Source: Halanaerobium saccharolyticum
Lineage (GTDB): Bacteria > Bacillota > Halanaerobiia > Halanaerobiales > Halanaerobiaceae
Assembly (NCBI RefSeq): GCF_003053565.1
Contig: NZ_QAXS01000004.1
Location: 1 to 64,000, forward strand
Length of the DNA stretch: 64,000 nucleotides
Direction of reading: 5' to 3'
Shown: positions 30,023 through 37,304 of the stretch, in pieces
Layout: each line of letters begins with the position of its first letter
How positions within the stretch are numbered: position 1 is the stretch's first letter
The notes under the pieces: generated by a model
What the model was told of the DNA's origin: nothing
Seen by the model: only the letters and a program-made list of their open reading frames with translations
Databases searched by the model: none
Translations under genes and position numbers: made by a program

Positions 30023-30545
30023 AGACAGCTACCATACATATTATCCCTCGCCAATAGGTATTTTAAAAATAGAATTTAATAATCAGGCTTTATTAAAAAT
30101 TGAGTTTGATGACCACCTGAGAGAAGTAAAAAACAACTGTCAGAAGAATTTTTATGAAGATCCGGAAATTTTAAAGATTTACAATCTGATTTTTGACCAG
30201 TTAAATCAATATTTTATGGGTCAGAGGAATGTATTTGATATTCCTATTCAGCTCAACGGAAGTCATTTTGAACTGAAGGTCTGGAAGTTTATTCAAAAAA
30301 TTCCCTACGGCAAAACTTTTTCTTATCAAGAACTGGCTGCAGCAATCGGAAATCCTGGAGCAGCAAAAGCAGTTAGACATGCCAGTTCGCGAAACCCGAT
30401 TGCAGTAATTATCCCCTGCCATCGAGTAGTTGCTTTAAACGGAGGCACTAAAGGTTATCGCGGTGGAGTCTGGCGCAAAGAATGGCTTTTGAAACACGAA
30501 AATAATAAAAGTAAACATTTAGAAAGGAAGATTTCTTTTGTCTAA
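30015..30545 (+). CDS. ogt: methylated-DNA--[protein]-cysteine S-methyltransferase
   Basis: Suicide DNA-repair protein removing alkyl groups from O6-guanine. The 176 residues hold the helix-turn-helix part (IPYGKTFSYQELAAAIGNPGAAKAVRHASSRNP) and the active-site IIPCHRVV with acceptor Cys near residue 135, then GGTKGYRGGVWRKEWLL. I choose the TTG at 30015, preceded by AAGGGGTGA; the in-frame GTG at 30006 is part of that site. It overlaps both neighbours by eight bases. Confidence 0.93.
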   Translation: MTKDSYHTYYPSPIGILKIEFNNQALLKIEFDDHLREVKNNCQKNFYEDPEILKIYNLIFDQLNQYFMGQRNVFDIPIQLNGSHFELKVWKFIQKIPYGKTFSYQELAAAIGNPGAAKAVRHASSRNPIAVIIPCHRVVALNGGTKGYRGGVWRKEWLLKHENNKSKHLERKISFV

Positions 30546-32334
30546 AGAATTAAAGCAAAGAGAAGAAATTGATGATAAATACAAATGGAATTTAAATGAT
30601 ATTTATGCTGACGATCAGAGTTTTGAAAACGAACTGGAAAAAGTGCTTGCAGAAGTTAAAAATATTGAAAAATTAAAAGCAGATTTTACAGATAGTGCAG
30701 ATAAGTTACTTGCTGCCTTAAATAAAATTATCAAAATTGAAGAAAAAACTGCCCGGTTATATGCTTATGCACATATGAAATATGATCAAAACACCCAGCA
30801 GGAAAAATATCAAAATTATAAAAATAAGGCAATGATGTGCTATAACAAATTATCGAATTCAACTTCATTTATGGTGCCTGCAATTATTCAGCTGGGAGAA
30901 GAAAAACTTGCACAGTATAAAAAAGAAAATCAGGAGCTTGAATTTTTTAATCACTTTTTTGATAATATTTTAAGACAGAAAGAACATTATCTTTCTGCCA
31001 AAGAGGAAAAGATTCTGGCTTTAGCCGGTGAGGTTACTCAGAGTTCAGAAAATATATTCAGCATGCTGAATAATGCAGATCTTCAATTCCCACTGATTAA
31101 AGATGAAAACGGGGAAGAGCTGCGTCTGACTCACGGCAGATATATAGATCTATTAAAAAATGAAGATCGAAGAGTTAGAGAAGACGCCTTTGAAGGAATG
31201 CACGGGGAATATCAAAAACTGGAAAACACTTTTGCAGCAGTGCTTGACAGCTCGGTTAAGGGAGATATTTTTTATGCCCGGGCCAGAAAATATGACAGTG
31301 CCTTAGAATCTGCTCTTGATAGTGATAATATAAGTACAGATGTCTATAATAATTTAATCGATACTGTTTCTAATAATCTGAAGCCGCTGCATCAGTACAT
31401 GGAGCTGAAAAAAGATCTGCTGGAGCTGGATGAGCTCCATATTTATGACACTTATACTCCTTTAATCAAAGAAATTGATCTCAAATTTAAATATGAAGAA
31501 ACAAAAGACATTATTAAAAAAGCGGTAAAGCCACTTGGTGAGAATTATATTAAAACAGTCGAAGAGGGCTTTAACTCAGGCTGGATTGATGTCTATGAAA
31601 ATAAGGGTAAGCGCTCAGGAGCCTATTCCAGCGGCTGTTATGGAGTTCACCCCTATATTCTGATGAACTATACTCAGGATATCAGCAATCTCTTTACTTT
31701 AATTCATGAGATGGGACATGCCATGCACAGCTACTACTCTAATAAAAACCAGCCCTATTTATATGCTGATTATAAGATTTTTGTAGCTGAAGTAGCTTCA
31801 ACTTTAAATGAGAATCTGCTTTTAGATTATATGCTGGAAAACGCAGAAAGCAGCGAGGAAAAACTCTATCTATTAAACTACTTTTTAGAAGGCTTTAGAG
31901 GTACAGTCTACAGACAGACCATGTTTGCTGAGTTTGAAAAGAAGATTCACGAAAGGGTAGAGGCAGGAGAAAGTTTAACCTCCCAGACAATGAAGGGAAT
32001 GTACAGGAATTTAAACCAGAAATATTTTGGTGAAGCGCTGGTTATTGACGAAAAGCTGGATTATGAGTGGGCCAGAATCCCTCATTTCTACTATAATTTC
32101 TATGTCTATAAATATGCTACCGGTTATTCCGCAGCAGCAGCTCTGGCCGAAAAGATTCAGACTGAAGGGCCAGAGGCAGCGGCTAATTATTTAGAGTTTT
32201 TAAAGGCAGGAGGCAGTGACTATCCTCTCAACATCCTGAAAAAAGCTGGAGTTGATATGGAAAAATCAACTGCTATAGAAAATGCAGCTGCTAAGTTTAA
32301 AAAGTACTTAAAACAGCTGCAGGAATTAGTTTAA
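30538..32334 (+). CDS. pepF: oligoendopeptidase F (M3B metallopeptidase)
   Basis: Cytoplasmic zinc peptidase cutting short peptides. The 598 residues match PepF, with the zinc motif HEMGH at about 390-394 in TLIHEMGHAMHSYYSN and the downstream Glu in FVAEVASTLNENLLLDY. YSSGCYGVHPYILMNY and the C-terminal FYYNFYVYKYATGYSAAAALA are family signatures. The TTG start lies seven bases after AAGGAAG and inside the end of ogt. It heads a run of peptide-using genes with pepV and the M18 aminopeptidase. No clear terminator separates it from the convergent esterase gene 62 bases away. Confidence 0.95.
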   Translation: MSKELKQREEIDDKYKWNLNDIYADDQSFENELEKVLAEVKNIEKLKADFTDSADKLLAALNKIIKIEEKTARLYAYAHMKYDQNTQQEKYQNYKNKAMMCYNKLSNSTSFMVPAIIQLGEEKLAQYKKENQELEFFNHFFDNILRQKEHYLSAKEEKILALAGEVTQSSENIFSMLNNADLQFPLIKDENGEELRLTHGRYIDLLKNEDRRVREDAFEGMHGEYQKLENTFAAVLDSSVKGDIFYARARKYDSALESALDSDNISTDVYNNLIDTVSNNLKPLHQYMELKKDLLELDELHIYDTYTPLIKEIDLKFKYEETKDIIKKAVKPLGENYIKTVEEGFNSGWIDVYENKGKRSGAYSSGCYGVHPYILMNYTQDISNLFTLIHEMGHAMHSYYSNKNQPYLYADYKIFVAEVASTLNENLLLDYMLENAESSEEKLYLLNYFLEGFRGTVYRQTMFAEFEKKIHERVEAGESLTSQTMKGMYRNLNQKYFGEALVIDEKLDYEWARIPHFYYNFYVYKYATGYSAAAALAEKIQTEGPEAAANYLEFLKAGGSDYPLNILKKAGVDMEKSTAIENAAAKFKKYLKQLQELV

Positions 32335-32396
32335 TGCTCAGTCAATTTTAACAGAATTATTCATTTATGATTATCAACTTCAAGTAAAAGAAATTT

Positions 32397-33191
32397 TTAT
32401 TTGCTGAAGAAATTTATAATATCACTGGCACATCTTTCTTTTTCAAGATCGTTGGTTATTACATGGGGTGATTTTTGATAGATCTTTTGGTCTACTAAAA
32501 ATTGTCCCATTTTTTTATTTAAAAAATCCTTGATCTGATCAGTGGCTACCTGTTCATCATTACTGGAAAGGATCAGCTGGGTTGGAGATTTAATTTTAGG
32601 AACAGCCTTTCTTCCCTTTTTCATTAACTTATATAATTCAGCCAGAGCCTCAGGATAGTAATTAAAGCTGTAATTGTTGTGGTAGTCAATTTCTTCTGCT
32701 GATAAATCAGCCTGATTAATTTGAAAATCATTATCCAGTTTTTTAACAAAATATTTAAGGTATGGAGCAAAGGCAATATTTTTATTGGCTGTATAAAAGG
32801 CTGGAGCTACCAGTGATAATTTTTCCACTTCAAAATTTGAAGCTACAAGTGCTGCCAGCAGTCCACCCATGGAAAGACCAGCCAGGTAGATATTTTGATA
32901 ATCACTTTTTAGATAAAAATAGCTGTCTACAGACTTACGGAGCCACTGCTCGGCACTGCTGTTTAAAAAATCTGATCTATTGGTTGCGTGTCCGGGTAGT
33001 CTCGGAACATAGACTGGTAAGTCAAGTTCCTGATAAATTTTTTTGGCGATATAATTCCAGTTGCTGCTTTTACCCCCAAAACCGTGGAGCAAAAGTACGG
33101 CTGTACTTTCTTCTTGATTATTAAAACCATATTTAATTTCTCTTCCCAGAGGATTAATTGTGGTTGATTTTTTGATTTTATCTAATTTCAA
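32397..33191 (-). CDS. alpha/beta hydrolase, carboxylesterase / monoacylglycerol-lipase type
   Basis: Serine hydrolase with the oxyanion motif LLLHGFGGKSSNW, nucleophile elbow GLSMGG, acid LSSNDEQV and a C-terminal His in KSPHVITND, as in Est30-like carboxylesterases. No signal peptide is seen. The start is uncertain. The frame is open to an ATG at 33251, but no ribosome site precedes it or the ATGs at 33227, 33224 and 33206. A GGGGG eight bases before the TTG at 33191 makes that my choice (264 residues). It is the only - strand gene between pepF and pepV, so it is not part of their operon. Confidence 0.8.
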   Translation of the reverse strand: MKLDKIKKSTTINPLGREIKYGFNNQEESTAVLLLHGFGGKSSNWNYIAKKIYQELDLPVYVPRLPGHATNRSDFLNSSAEQWLRKSVDSYFYLKSDYQNIYLAGLSMGGLLAALVASNFEVEKLSLVAPAFYTANKNIAFAPYLKYFVKKLDNDFQINQADLSAEEIDYHNNYSFNYYPEALAELYKLMKKGRKAVPKIKSPTQLILSSNDEQVATDQIKDFLNKKMGQFLVDQKIYQKSPHVITNDLEKERCASDIINFFSK

Positions 33192-33261
33192 TTTTACGAC
33201 CCCCATTATTGTCTTTTCTTTCATCATATTACACCAGACATTGAATTTCAAAGAATATTAT

Positions 33262-33290
33262 TTTAAATTCATAAATAAAAGTGATAGAAT
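33262..33290 (+). promoter_or_regulatory. putative pepV promoter
   Basis: TAGAAT at 33285-33290 preceded by TG (extended -10), with TTTAAA at 33262-33267 seventeen bases upstream. The predicted leader is about 62 bases and contains the ribosome site and the hairpin before pepV. Confidence 0.5.
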
Positions 33291-33317
33291 ATTATTTAGA
33301 AAATAAATTTAAACTGC

Positions 33318-33358
33318 AGGAGGTGAAAGTTTAATAGTTAAGACTATTAAACTCAAAT
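33318..33358 (+). promoter_or_regulatory. pepV ribosome site separated from its ATG by a perfect hairpin
   Basis: A strong AGGAGGTG sits at 33318-33325, but the pepV ATG is at 33359, 33 bases later. Between them AGTTTAATAGT (33328-33338) and its exact complement (33343-33353) form an 11-bp stem with a TAAG loop. Two bases before and five after the stem leave an effective spacing of seven if the hairpin folds. No start codon in the pepV frame lies between the site and the ATG; a TAG stop is at 33335-33337. Folding would therefore control or permit translation. Confidence 0.7.
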
Positions 33359-34768
33359 ATGAAAGATAAAATTAGAGAAAGAGCAGAATTTTTAAGAGAT
33401 AATATGATATTAAGTACTCAGGAGCTGGTTAGAATACCGAGTGTTGAGGCAGAAGCCGAAGGAGACTTCCCTTATGGTAAGAATGTCTATCAGGCTCTGG
33501 CTAAAGCAGTAGAGATTTCTGAGAACTTAGGTTTTAAGACAAAAAACATCGACAATCAGGCAGCTCATGTAGAGATGGGTGAGGGAGAGGAAATTCTTGG
33601 CCTGCTCTGCCACTTAGATGTGGTACCAGAGGGTAGTGACTGGACCTACCCACCTTATGCTGCCGAAATTCACGATGGTAAAATTTATGGAAGAGGAACT
33701 ATTGATGACAAGGGACCGGCAGTAGCTGCGCTTTATGGAATGAAAATTGTGCAGGAGCTGGGAGTTAAATTAAATAAAAAAGTAAGATTAATTCTCGGTA
33801 CAAATGAGGAATCCGGTATGGCTTCTCTTGATTACTATTTTAAGAAGGAAAAAATGCCAGATCTGGCCTTCAGTCCCGATGCCACTTTTCCGGCCATTCA
33901 TGCTGAAAAAGGAATTTTGGATCTTAAATTTTCAGCAGAAATCGAGGAAAAAGCGGCTAAAGAAGGAATAAAGTTAATAGAAATTAAGGGCGGCAATGCA
34001 ACCAATATGGTTCCCGATTATGCAGAAGCAGTTATTAGCGGTATCGAAAAGGAAGAACTTAAGGAGCTGCTGAAGGAGCTTGAATATGATCAGGATGAAT
34101 TGGAAATTAAAGCAGAAAATAATAATATAATACTGGGCTATCACGGTATTTCTGCTCACGGCAGTATGCCAGAAGATGGCAAAAATGCGATTTCTTATTT
34201 AATTGATATCTTAGCTGAACTTCCCTTTGTGGCTGCTGGTGTTAGAGACTTTTTCAGTTTCTATAAAAATAAAATAGGTCTGGAATATGATGGTGCTTCA
34301 ATTGGCTGTAAAGATCAGGATGATGTCCCGACAGCTTTAACTTTTAATACCGGAATTATTAAAGGTGATCAGAGTAAAATCCAATTTATAGTCAATATCC
34401 GCTACCCGGTTAAATCAAGTGCTGAGAAAGTAGTCAGTGATATCAAAACTGAGCTCACTGATTTAATTGCTGTTGAATTACTGCGAGATGCTAAACCTCT
34501 GTTTGTAGCCAAAGATGATCCTTTTATTAAAAAGCTAATGGCAGCCTATCAGGAATTTACCGGTGATGACAGTGAGCCAATAGCAATTGGTGGTGGAACC
34601 TATGCCCGTAAAGTTAAAAAAGGAGTAGCTTTTGGTCCGCTATTTCCGGGACAGCCTGAGCTGGCACATCAAAAAGATGAACATATTGGTATTGATGATC
34701 TGGTTAAAAGTGCTGCTATTTATGCTAAGGCAATTATTGATATTGCCGGGGTGAAAAGAGATGAATAA
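33359..34768 (+). CDS. pepV: dipeptidase PepV (M20 family)
   Basis: Dinuclear zinc dipeptidase with broad specificity. The 469 residues show the M20 pattern: LLCHLDVVPEGSDWTYPPYAA (metal His and catalytic Asp), YGRGTIDDKGP, GTNEESGM, FSPDATFPAIHAEKG, and the C-terminal GGGTYARKVKKGVAFGPLFPGQPELAHQKDEH, typical of PepV. The ATG at 33359 is forced because no other in-frame start lies after the upstream TAG. The Shine-Dalgarno is unusually distant and bridged by a hairpin. The end overlaps the M18 peptidase gene by eight bases (ATGAATAA). Confidence 0.94.
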   Translation: MKDKIRERAEFLRDNMILSTQELVRIPSVEAEAEGDFPYGKNVYQALAKAVEISENLGFKTKNIDNQAAHVEMGEGEEILGLLCHLDVVPEGSDWTYPPYAAEIHDGKIYGRGTIDDKGPAVAALYGMKIVQELGVKLNKKVRLILGTNEESGMASLDYYFKKEKMPDLAFSPDATFPAIHAEKGILDLKFSAEIEEKAAKEGIKLIEIKGGNATNMVPDYAEAVISGIEKEELKELLKELEYDQDELEIKAENNNIILGYHGISAHGSMPEDGKNAISYLIDILAELPFVAAGVRDFFSFYKNKIGLEYDGASIGCKDQDDVPTALTFNTGIIKGDQSKIQFIVNIRYPVKSSAEKVVSDIKTELTDLIAVELLRDAKPLFVAKDDPFIKKLMAAYQEFTGDDSEPIAIGGGTYARKVKKGVAFGPLFPGQPELAHQKDEHIGIDDLVKSAAIYAKAIIDIAGVKRDE

Positions 34769-36074
34769 AGATGCAGTAGAACTGATAGAATTTATTAATA
34801 ATTCACCGACTGCTTTTCATGCAGCAGCTGAAGTGGAGAAAAGACTAAAAGGGGCAGGCTTTAAGCAGCTTGATCCGGCTCAGAAATGGAAATTAAAAGA
34901 GGGAGAAAAATATTTTGTCAGCCGTAATGACTCTGCTCTAATAGCATTTATAACCGGAAAAGACTTCCTGAATCAGGGTTTCAGAATTATTTCTTCTCAC
35001 ACTGACAGTCCGACTTTAAAAGTTAAACCAGACCCGATAATTAACAGTGAGGGGCAGTATGTTTTAAATACTGAAATTTATGGAGGCCCCATTTTAAATA
35101 CCTGGTATGATAGAGAACTGTCTCTGGCTGGAAAAATTGTGCTCAAATCCAAAGATTCTTTTGAACTGAAAGAAGAATTAATTGACCTGGAAAAAAATCT
35201 GGCTGTGGTTCCCAATCTGCCAATTCACCTTAATAAAGATGTTAATCAAAAAGGGAAAATTGATAAAAAGAAAGGTCTGCGGGCACTAATTACTCAAAAT
35301 TTAGACTCTAAGGAGAGTGGAGGAGATTCTGATTCAGAAGCTGAATTAAAGCTGAAGGATTTAATAGCCCAATTATCCGATTACAGGGCAGAAGAAATCC
35401 TGGAAGCTGAGCTCTATCTTTATCCAACCCAAAAAGCGCAGTTTTTAGGTCCTAAAGATGAATTTATTGCTGCCGGCCGCCAGGACAATCTGGCAATGGT
35501 TCATGCTTCCTTAGAGGCCCTCTTAAGCTCTAAAACAGAGGACTGGACACAGATGGCTGTTTTTTATGATAATGAGGAAATAGGCAGTCATACACCCCAG
35601 GGAGCTGATTCTCCCTTTGCCGGCAATTTGATTGAGCGGGTAATCTATAATCTGGGAGCTAAAAGAGAAGATTATTACAGGATTATCGAAAAGTCCTTTT
35701 TAATCTCTGCTGATATGGCCCATGCAGTTCATCCTAACTTCAGTGAAGAATATGATCAAAATAACAGAACTTTACTTAATCAGGGGCCGGTAATTAAATA
35801 TAATGCTAATTTGAAATATACAACTAATGCCAGTACAGCTGGAGTTTTAATTGATCTGATGGAGAAAAATGAGATTCCCTATCAGCTTTATACCAACCGC
35901 AGTGATAAGCGCGGAGGCTCAACAATTGGACCTATAGCAGCAACTCAGCTGGGAATAAAGAGTATAGATTTAGGAAATCCCCTGCTGGCAATGCACTCCA
36001 GTCGCGAGCTGGGCGGCAGTAATGATCAGAAAGAGATGATAAAAGTAATGACTTTATTTTATCAGGAAAATTAG
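34761..36074 (+). CDS. M18 family aminopeptidase
   Basis: Cytoplasmic zinc aminopeptidase of the ApeB/DAP2 type. The metal-binding regions are visible in order: ISSHTDSPTLKVKP, IAAGRQDNLAMVHASLEAL, VFYDNEEIGSHTPQGADSPF, SADMAHAVHPNF, and the terminal LAMHSSRELGGSNDQKEM. The 437 residues fit the family. GGGGTGAAAAG ahead of the ATG is the ribosome site. Translation is likely coupled to pepV through the eight-base overlap, which suggests the products of dipeptide and peptide cleavage are used together. Confidence 0.94.
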   Translation: MNKDAVELIEFINNSPTAFHAAAEVEKRLKGAGFKQLDPAQKWKLKEGEKYFVSRNDSALIAFITGKDFLNQGFRIISSHTDSPTLKVKPDPIINSEGQYVLNTEIYGGPILNTWYDRELSLAGKIVLKSKDSFELKEELIDLEKNLAVVPNLPIHLNKDVNQKGKIDKKKGLRALITQNLDSKESGGDSDSEAELKLKDLIAQLSDYRAEEILEAELYLYPTQKAQFLGPKDEFIAAGRQDNLAMVHASLEALLSSKTEDWTQMAVFYDNEEIGSHTPQGADSPFAGNLIERVIYNLGAKREDYYRIIEKSFLISADMAHAVHPNFSEEYDQNNRTLLNQGPVIKYNANLKYTTNASTAGVLIDLMEKNEIPYQLYTNRSDKRGGSTIGPIAATQLGIKSIDLGNPLLAMHSSRELGGSNDQKEMIKVMTLFYQEN

Positions 36075-36089
36075 ACAGGAGGAGTTACT

Positions 36090-37304
36090 TTGCAAAACTT
36101 TAACTTTTCAAAATTAGAAAATAGAGAAAATACTATGGCTGCCAAATGGGATAAGCGAGCAGAAATTTTTGGCAGCGAAGATGTTTTACCACTCTGGGTG
36201 GCAGATTCTGACTGGCAGACAGCTCCGGCAGTTAAGCAGAAATTAATTGAGCGAGCTGAAGCGGGAATTTTCGGCTACAGTTTTGCTGATCAGAGCATCT
36301 ACCAGGCAGTAGAAGACTGGCTGCAAAAAAGATTTGAGCTCAAAATCGACAGAGAGTGGCTGCTCTTTGATACAGGAGTAGTACCTGCAATTAACTTTAC
36401 TTTAAAGGCTATTACAGAAGAAAACGATGCTGTAATTATTCAGCCGCCTGTATACAGGCCCTTTTTTGGAGCCGTAAAGGCCAATAACTGCCGACCTATT
36501 AAAAATGAATTAATAAAAGAAGATAATCATTATCAGATGGACTTAGCTAACTTAAAACTTGAAATTAAAAAAGCAAAAGAAAAGGGAGAGCGGGTAAGAG
36601 CAATGATCTTCTGCAGCCCTCACAATCCAGTTGGTCGGGTCTGGCAGGAAGATGAGCTGCTTAAACTGCTGCGTCTGCTTAAAAAAGAAGATATTTATCT
36701 TTTAAGTGATGAAATTCATTCTGACCTTATTTATCCAGGCTATAAGCATCAGCCGGTACTTAAACTGCTGCTGGCCCGGGAAGAGTTTAAAGACTACCGA
36801 CAGAAGGTTGTTTCTTTTATGGCTGCCAGCAAAACTTTTAATATTGCAGGTCTGCATACATCTTATACGATCATTGAATCTAAAAAGCTGCGTCAGGCCT
36901 ATAATAAGGCAAAAGAAGGTTTTGGAACCGGCAACAGCCCCTTTGGTCTACTTGCTTTAAAAACTGCCTATAATCAGGGGGAAGAGTGGCTGGAAGCACA
37001 GCTTAAGTATTTAGAGTCAAATTATAATTTCTTAAAGGAATATCTTCAGGAAAGGCTGCCTCAAATTAAAGCTGTTGAGGCGGAAGGTACTTATTTAGTC
37101 TGGCTGGACTGTTCAGAACTTGGTTTTGAAAATGATGAGCAGCTAATTGAATTTATGAATAAAAAGGCAAAGGTGGGGCTTAATCCAGGCCGCTGGTTTG
37201 GAGATGCAGGCTCAATGCATATGCGCTTAAATCTTGCCTGTCCCCGCGAGAGATTAAAAGAAGGACTGGATAGAATCAAAGAAGCGGTTAAAAATAATCT
37301 TTAA
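36090..37304 (+). CDS. patB: PatB/MalY-type C-S lyase (cystathionine beta-lyase), PLP-dependent
   Basis: Fold type I aminotransferase-like enzyme. LPLWVADSDWQTAPAV near the start and YSFADQSIYQAVEDWLQKRF are typical of MalY/PatB. FCSPHNPVGRVW and LLSDEIHSDLIYPG precede the PLP lysine in MAASKTFNIAGLHTSY. Such enzymes release pyruvate, ammonia and a thiol from cystathionine or cysteine. The 404 residues match. The TTG start follows AGGAGGAG by five bases. It follows the M18 gene by 15 bases and so may use amino acids released by the peptidases; substrate choice cannot be read from sequence. Confidence 0.9.
   Translation: MQNFNFSKLENRENTMAAKWDKRAEIFGSEDVLPLWVADSDWQTAPAVKQKLIERAEAGIFGYSFADQSIYQAVEDWLQKRFELKIDREWLLFDTGVVPAINFTLKAITEENDAVIIQPPVYRPFFGAVKANNCRPIKNELIKEDNHYQMDLANLKLEIKKAKEKGERVRAMIFCSPHNPVGRVWQEDELLKLLRLLKKEDIYLLSDEIHSDLIYPGYKHQPVLKLLLAREEFKDYRQKVVSFMAASKTFNIAGLHTSYTIIESKKLRQAYNKAKEGFGTGNSPFGLLALKTAYNQGEEWLEAQLKYLESNYNFLKEYLQERLPQIKAVEAEGTYLVWLDCSELGFENDEQLIEFMNKKAKVGLNPGRWFGDAGSMHMRLNLACPRERLKEGLDRIKEAVKNNL

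Follow-up and report, generated by a model that had tools for sequence, protein, structure and literature searches.

The start of pepV in Halanaerobium saccharolyticum is probably a split ribosome binding site, in which a hairpin bridges the distance between the Shine–Dalgarno (SD) sequence and the start codon; its effect on translation is inferred. According to the proposed mechanism, a hairpin of 9–11 bp would form between the SD sequence and the AUG of the pepV mRNA, the 30S subunit would pair with AGGAGGUG and, with the hairpin folded out of the mRNA path, the AUG would be encountered ~9–11 nt after GGAGG, not 35. We observed the arrangement itself, its conservation throughout the genus, covariation of the corresponding stems at sibling genes, and a normal spacing at the genes that lack the hairpin. 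Two points are inferred, without initiation or expression data: initiation on the folded hairpin, and a need for the hairpin in translation.

The pepV start region and its conservation

The window is the whole 64,000-nt stretch of DNA that was analysed (contig NZ_QAXS01000004.1, positions 1 to 64,000), and its numbering is used in Table 1. The pepV ATG (33359-33361) is separated from AGGAGGTG by 33 nt, and the leader contains a perfect 11-bp hairpin (33328-33353, 26 nt in total). Because an in-frame TAG is located within the 5′ arm (33335-33337) and no ATG, GTG or TTG occurs from there to 33359, the latter is the first possible pepV start. The first-pass annotation had described this SD sequence, the gap, the perfect hairpin with its TAAG loop and the only possible ATG, and both the sequence and the folds confirm that description. 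It had also stated that removing the 26 nt leaves the optimum spacing of 7 nt. While 7 nt do remain after AGGAGGTG, they amount to 9 nt after GGAGG; over 854 kb of scanned genome, the GGAGG-to-start spacing commonly takes values of 6–9 nt, with a mode of 7–8 and 23 cases at 9. The pepV spacing without its hairpin is normal, but not exactly the optimum.

Table 1. Features of the pepV start region, numbered as in the window
Feature	Position	Strand	Evidence and remarks
Putative extended −10 element of the pepV promoter, TGATAGAAT	33282..33290	+	Conservation judged by eye, most of the genus; inferred
Shine–Dalgarno sequence, AGGAGGTG	33318..33325	+	Sequence
Hairpin 5′ arm, AGTTTAATAGT	33328..33338	+	Sequence, fold; core GTTTAATAG unchanged in 11 species
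Hairpin loop, TAAG	33339..33342	+	Fold, alignment; differs among species
Hairpin 3′ arm, ACTATTAAACT	33343..33353	+	Sequence, fold, alignment
Spacer from hairpin to pepV start codon, CAAAT	33354..33358	+	Sequence
pepV, dipeptidase PepV, 469 aa	33359..34768	+	NCBIfam NF005591, E 3.5e-160 (above cut-off); Pfam M20

Counting from the putative −10 position, the pepV 5′ UTR would be ~60 nt long, an inference made without transcript data. The surrounding peptidase neighbourhood (window positions 30538-37304) contains pepF, a divergent alpha/beta hydrolase gene, pepV, an M18 aminopeptidase gene and a PatB-family C-S lyase gene, and the order pepF-hydrolase-pepV is kept in all 10 genus genomes with enough flanking sequence.

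The hairpin is present in both the minimum-free-energy and the centroid folds, with the SD sequence outside the stem. In the window, its core has a predicted pairing probability of 0.99; across the 11 Halanaerobium species, the hairpin's pairing probability is 0.96–1.00 and its energy is −8.4 to −10 kcal/mol. The SD sequence has a predicted mean unpaired probability of 0.93 in the window species, whereas in the pepV leaders of two others (G010 and G011) part of it is predicted to pair with other segments, which counts against bridging. The folding parameters apply to 37 °C and standard salt, and the organism is a halophile. The fold of the 131-nt region is unremarkable (z-score −0.63); the evidence for the hairpin is its position and conservation, not the z-score. 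Rfam covariance models, run against the pepV and nusG leaders, returned nothing at or near a gathering score.

A pepV gene is present in 11 of the 12 genus genomes searched; a close pepV was not found in the twelfth, which is 75% complete. The SD–hairpin–ATG order is retained in all 11, with a GGAGG-to-ATG distance of 34–37 nt compared to the genome norm of 6–9 nt. In every species, the ATG lies 5–8 nt after the 9-bp core of the stem, and 9–11 nt after GGAGG once the hairpin is removed. The motif GGAGGTG is invariant across 13 of 13 aligned loci, and the core itself (GTTTAATAG/CTATTAAAC) does not differ among the 11 pepV species, even though their fourfold-degenerate sites are only 35–55% identical in 9 of 10 comparisons and their protein identity falls to 67%. 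In the stem, 18 of 18 positions are invariant, compared to 1 of 82 fourfold-degenerate pepV columns (Fisher test, 6e-19, ignoring the relatedness of the species). The loop is free to vary, and that of G009 has one additional base.

The 11 pepV stems contain no compensatory change except at the tenth, loop-side pair, which occurs as UA or UG, and as GC solely in the glyoxalase-family gene described below. As the core is constant within the genus, structure alone is not a sufficient explanation for its conservation; judged from the pepV alignment by itself, a constraint on structure and a constraint on sequence appear inseparable. In the family's remaining two genera (G012, G013), pepV has an ordinary SD spacing and no hairpin. 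The hairpin was therefore gained on the Halanaerobium lineage, or else lost in the sister genera, and has been kept since.

Hairpins between Shine–Dalgarno sequence and start codon at other genes

We scanned 854 kb of this genome (~27%) for strong SD sequences located 22–49 nt before a start codon, with no nearer SD sequence or in-frame start, and found 120 such long gaps. Four of them contain a stem of at least 8 bp with a loop of at most 12 nt, compared to 0.22 expected, and none of 2000 shuffles reached four. These loci are pepV, nusG, a zinc-ribbon gene and a sugar-binding-protein gene. Slightly wider settings yielded 5 observed and 0.42 expected, and a decoy-codon control gave 4 matches, 3 of them at the same loci as the real ones. 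In three other genomes (400 kb sampled from each), the excess under the strict criterion was weak or absent. Chance was taken to account for several candidates of the scan that have long loops or an in-frame start closer by (L16, FeoA, RNase J). A further candidate is a tyrosyl-tRNA-synthetase-like gene in G025 (L323:10829), where GGGGGG precedes a 10-bp hairpin (TACCTGGTAA/TTACCAGGTG) and the start codon is TTG.

At nusG (L178, G000:C7:18234), the SD–hairpin–ATG order is found in most Halanaerobiales families and in several other Bacillota (orthologues L177-L205, L242-L264). Its stems vary (AGGAUUC/GAAUCCU, AGGAACC/GGUUCCU and AGGAGCC/GGCUCCC), while 132 of 133 cells of the core are paired and 3 of 7 positions show double changes; the stems were registered by hand, and these counts are descriptive, related sequences being non-independent. 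The nusG of G029 has no hairpin and a normal spacing. The nusG hairpin may be an ancient part of the secE-nusG junction. Separately, in G016, G034 and G036 (L197, L199, L200), the nusG SD sequence itself is apparently part of a stem (AGGGCCTGAA..GGAGGCCCT) at ordinary spacing, and this hairpin looks like an occluding one, not a bridging one.

The zinc-ribbon gene (L166:3121, G000:C1:123121) encodes a zinc-ribbon-like protein of 210 aa that is conserved in the genus and matched no Pfam family. Most species share the stem CCUGGCC/GGCCGGG in its GC-rich hairpin, and two have CCUGACC/GGUCGGG; a likely counterpart in another family (L313, recognised by its N-terminus) carries an unrelated stem of 11 bp at the equivalent position. 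Immediately upstream of the SD sequence of L166 is another inverted repeat (AACCTAATT..AATTAGGTT). The stem of the sugar-binding-protein gene shows a UA to CG change plus a U-G. As read from these alignments, the orthologues of the sibling genes show structure-driven evolution of their stems.

The pepV stem also recurs at other genes. Searching a genome collection of 84,980 species for an SD sequence followed by a pepV-type hairpin returned 11 loci: seven Halanaerobium pepV genes, three loci without an ATG and one Halanaerobiales MAG. The three loci are outside Halanaerobiales, lack the ATG arrangement and were attributed to chance. In the MAG, the hairpin lies between the SD sequence and ATG of a glyoxalase-family gene; the stop codon of the preceding, co-oriented gene comes directly before it, and it is probably inside an operon. 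G024 keeps this arrangement (85% identical protein) with one G-C to G-U change; more distant orthologues (L078-L080) have no hairpin and a normal spacing. A covariance model applied to 38 genomes of the order identified further SD–hairpin–ATG arrangements at a 100-aa gene of unknown function (G020, G026), at an ArsR gene (G020) and, with a similar stem, at a sugar-isomerase-like gene (G005), together with hairpins of other build before pdxA (G025) and yhbY (G018, G021). Weak matches of the model (L126, L129-L136) had no bridging hairpin and were rejected as chance. A looser pattern search agreed with the model's result. When the stem was scrambled at constant composition, the search returned 4 scattered matches, none with GGAGGTG.

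Overall, four unrelated genes of the order carry the pepV stem sequence between SD sequence and ATG, and they have no obvious common function. The viral contigs searched contained no SD–hairpin arrangement. As a genome-wide repeat or simple regulon, the pepV palindrome gave a negative result: each genome has a single copy, and looser matches remained at control level. G010 additionally holds a 24-bp palindrome, ATTTAATAGTAGCTACTATTAAAT (L064:4447-4470; G010:C11:295446-295469), which has 22 nt in common with that species' pepV hairpin and is located upstream of a BglG/MtlR-like PRD regulator gene with no adjacent SD sequence.

These comparisons bear on the proposal of the first-pass annotation that the hairpin brings a distant SD sequence to the ATG, as in phage T4 gene 38. 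Conservation in 11 of 11 species and the compensatory changes at sibling genes support it. The suggested check, whether the stem of pepV has undergone compensatory changes, had an unexpected outcome: its core is invariant within the genus. The refuting case that had been named, a relative with the long gap and no pairing, was met in none of the relatives examined; those without a hairpin are canonical (pepV in G012 and G013, L078-L080, and nusG in G029).

Constraints on the pepV stem and rival explanations

A hairpin that serves as a bare spacer is free to change, as those of nusG and the zinc-ribbon gene do, whereas the pepV stem is frozen and recurrent, which we read as the sign of a second, sequence-specific constraint. 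This second layer is probably a trans-acting factor that recognises the pepV stem and adjusts translation, an inference for which no factor has been identified. More tentatively, we can envisage a Halanaerobiales translational regulon, in which a hairpin of the form GUUUAAUAG-loop-CUAUUAAAC is positioned between the SD sequence and AUG of unrelated genes and a dedicated factor sets the bridging, and beneath it a wider and ancient class of bridged starts that includes nusG across Bacillota.

The bridging hairpin could instead be mainly a switch, either a temperature or ion sensor or the target of a protein or sRNA, whose melting would remove the SD sequence from reach and turn pepV off. This is possible, though we doubt it. 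The AU-rich stem has a predicted energy of about −9 kcal/mol at 37 °C but only about −1 kcal/mol at 70 °C, and its frozen sequence and recurrence in four unrelated genes suggest recognition. However, a pure temperature or salt sensor needs no frozen stem sequence, no factor is identified and the genes have no obvious shared function. Moreover, a switch would be a layer added to the bridging explanation, and not an alternative to it.

The main rival reads the palindrome as an operator in the DNA, at which a dimeric transcription factor would act on the intergenic region between pepV and the divergent hydrolase gene, with the RNA hairpin as a by-product. An invariant stem is what protein-bound half-sites would produce, the hydrolase gene adjoins pepV in 10 of 10 genomes with enough flank, and the second G010 palindrome precedes a regulator gene without an SD sequence. 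We nevertheless consider an operator unlikely, since the same stem occurs exactly between the SD sequence and ATG of unrelated genes in the order, the glyoxalase-family hairpin directly follows an upstream stop codon and is probably intra-operon, the half-sites are spaced by either 6 or 7 nt (one extra base in G009), and covarying, unrelated stems occupy the same place at other genes. Recurrence at multiple promoters with a fixed spacing is not met; there is one perfect site per genome, with the G010 palindrome as the one promoter-region exception.

It is very improbable that the ribosome starts elsewhere, with the SD sequence dedicated to a small leader peptide or to some other start codon. 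An ATG (AATG TTT) does occur just past the SD sequence in G001, G004 and G008, but this ATG is absent from the other eight species, the in-frame TAG precludes an upstream start in the window species, and the N-terminus from 33359 aligns with the ATG of G013, where the spacing is ordinary. A recent, functionless palindromic insertion, which the first-pass annotation had offered as the alternative, would agree with the single copy and with its absence from the two sister genera, but is refuted by a hairpin that is unchanged in 11 species with diverged fourfold sites.

Relation to known systems and significance

The hairpin-bridged start of pepV has its closest documented parallel in phage T4. 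According to a review (PMC3014915, citing Nivinskas 1999; Malys & Nivinskas 2009), a hairpin cuts the SD–AUG spacing from 22 to 5 nt in gene 38 and from 27 to 11 nt in gene 25, and destabilising the structure lowered initiation experimentally. At pepV, an over-long spacing is likewise reduced, from 35 to ~9–11 nt, and in both systems close relatives keep the arrangement, whereas distant ones lack it as a whole. The T4-type features of a split site are met: the SD sequence is too far away, a hairpin restores the spacing, and the gap is absent where the hairpin is absent. Unlike the T4 genes, these are chromosomal genes of bacteria, several unrelated ones per genome, with compensatory changes across an order; also unlike them, the pepV stem is frozen and common to unrelated genes, and there is no mutational proof.

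The hairpin domain of Escherichia coli thrS is bound by ThrRS. In a review (PMC3936740), this domain is described as lying between the parts of an extended single-stranded ribosome-loading region, and the ribosome as accommodating the folded hairpin without melting it (citing Sacerdot et al.). The thrS site differs from pepV in that its hairpin is not between the SD sequence and AUG. RNA thermometers (ROSE, FourU) resemble pepV in having a small hairpin in the translation initiation region. They sequester the SD sequence in a stem, a criterion that pepV does not meet: its SD sequence is outside the stem, and the expected consequence of melting is a loss of translation, not its activation.

In a literature search of partial coverage, which does not exclude an earlier description, the documented bridging hairpins were those of phage T4 genes, and the only bacterial split site was the differently built thrS. 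This kind of ribosome binding site is known, while a covarying set of several bacterial genes that includes a subclass with a frozen stem sequence is, within the limits of the literature searched, new.

The hairpin-bridged layout looks like a real but little-known way to build a translation start. Comparative evidence places the same device in bacterial chromosomes, at several unrelated genes and with compensatory mutations. One of these genes, nusG, encodes a transcription factor that is close to universal, and has the device throughout much of an order and outside it. Such genes would be misjudged by gene finders and by models of translation rate that count a long SD spacing as a penalty. 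With its frozen stem, pepV offers a concrete, small RNA target for asking whether bridging is regulated.
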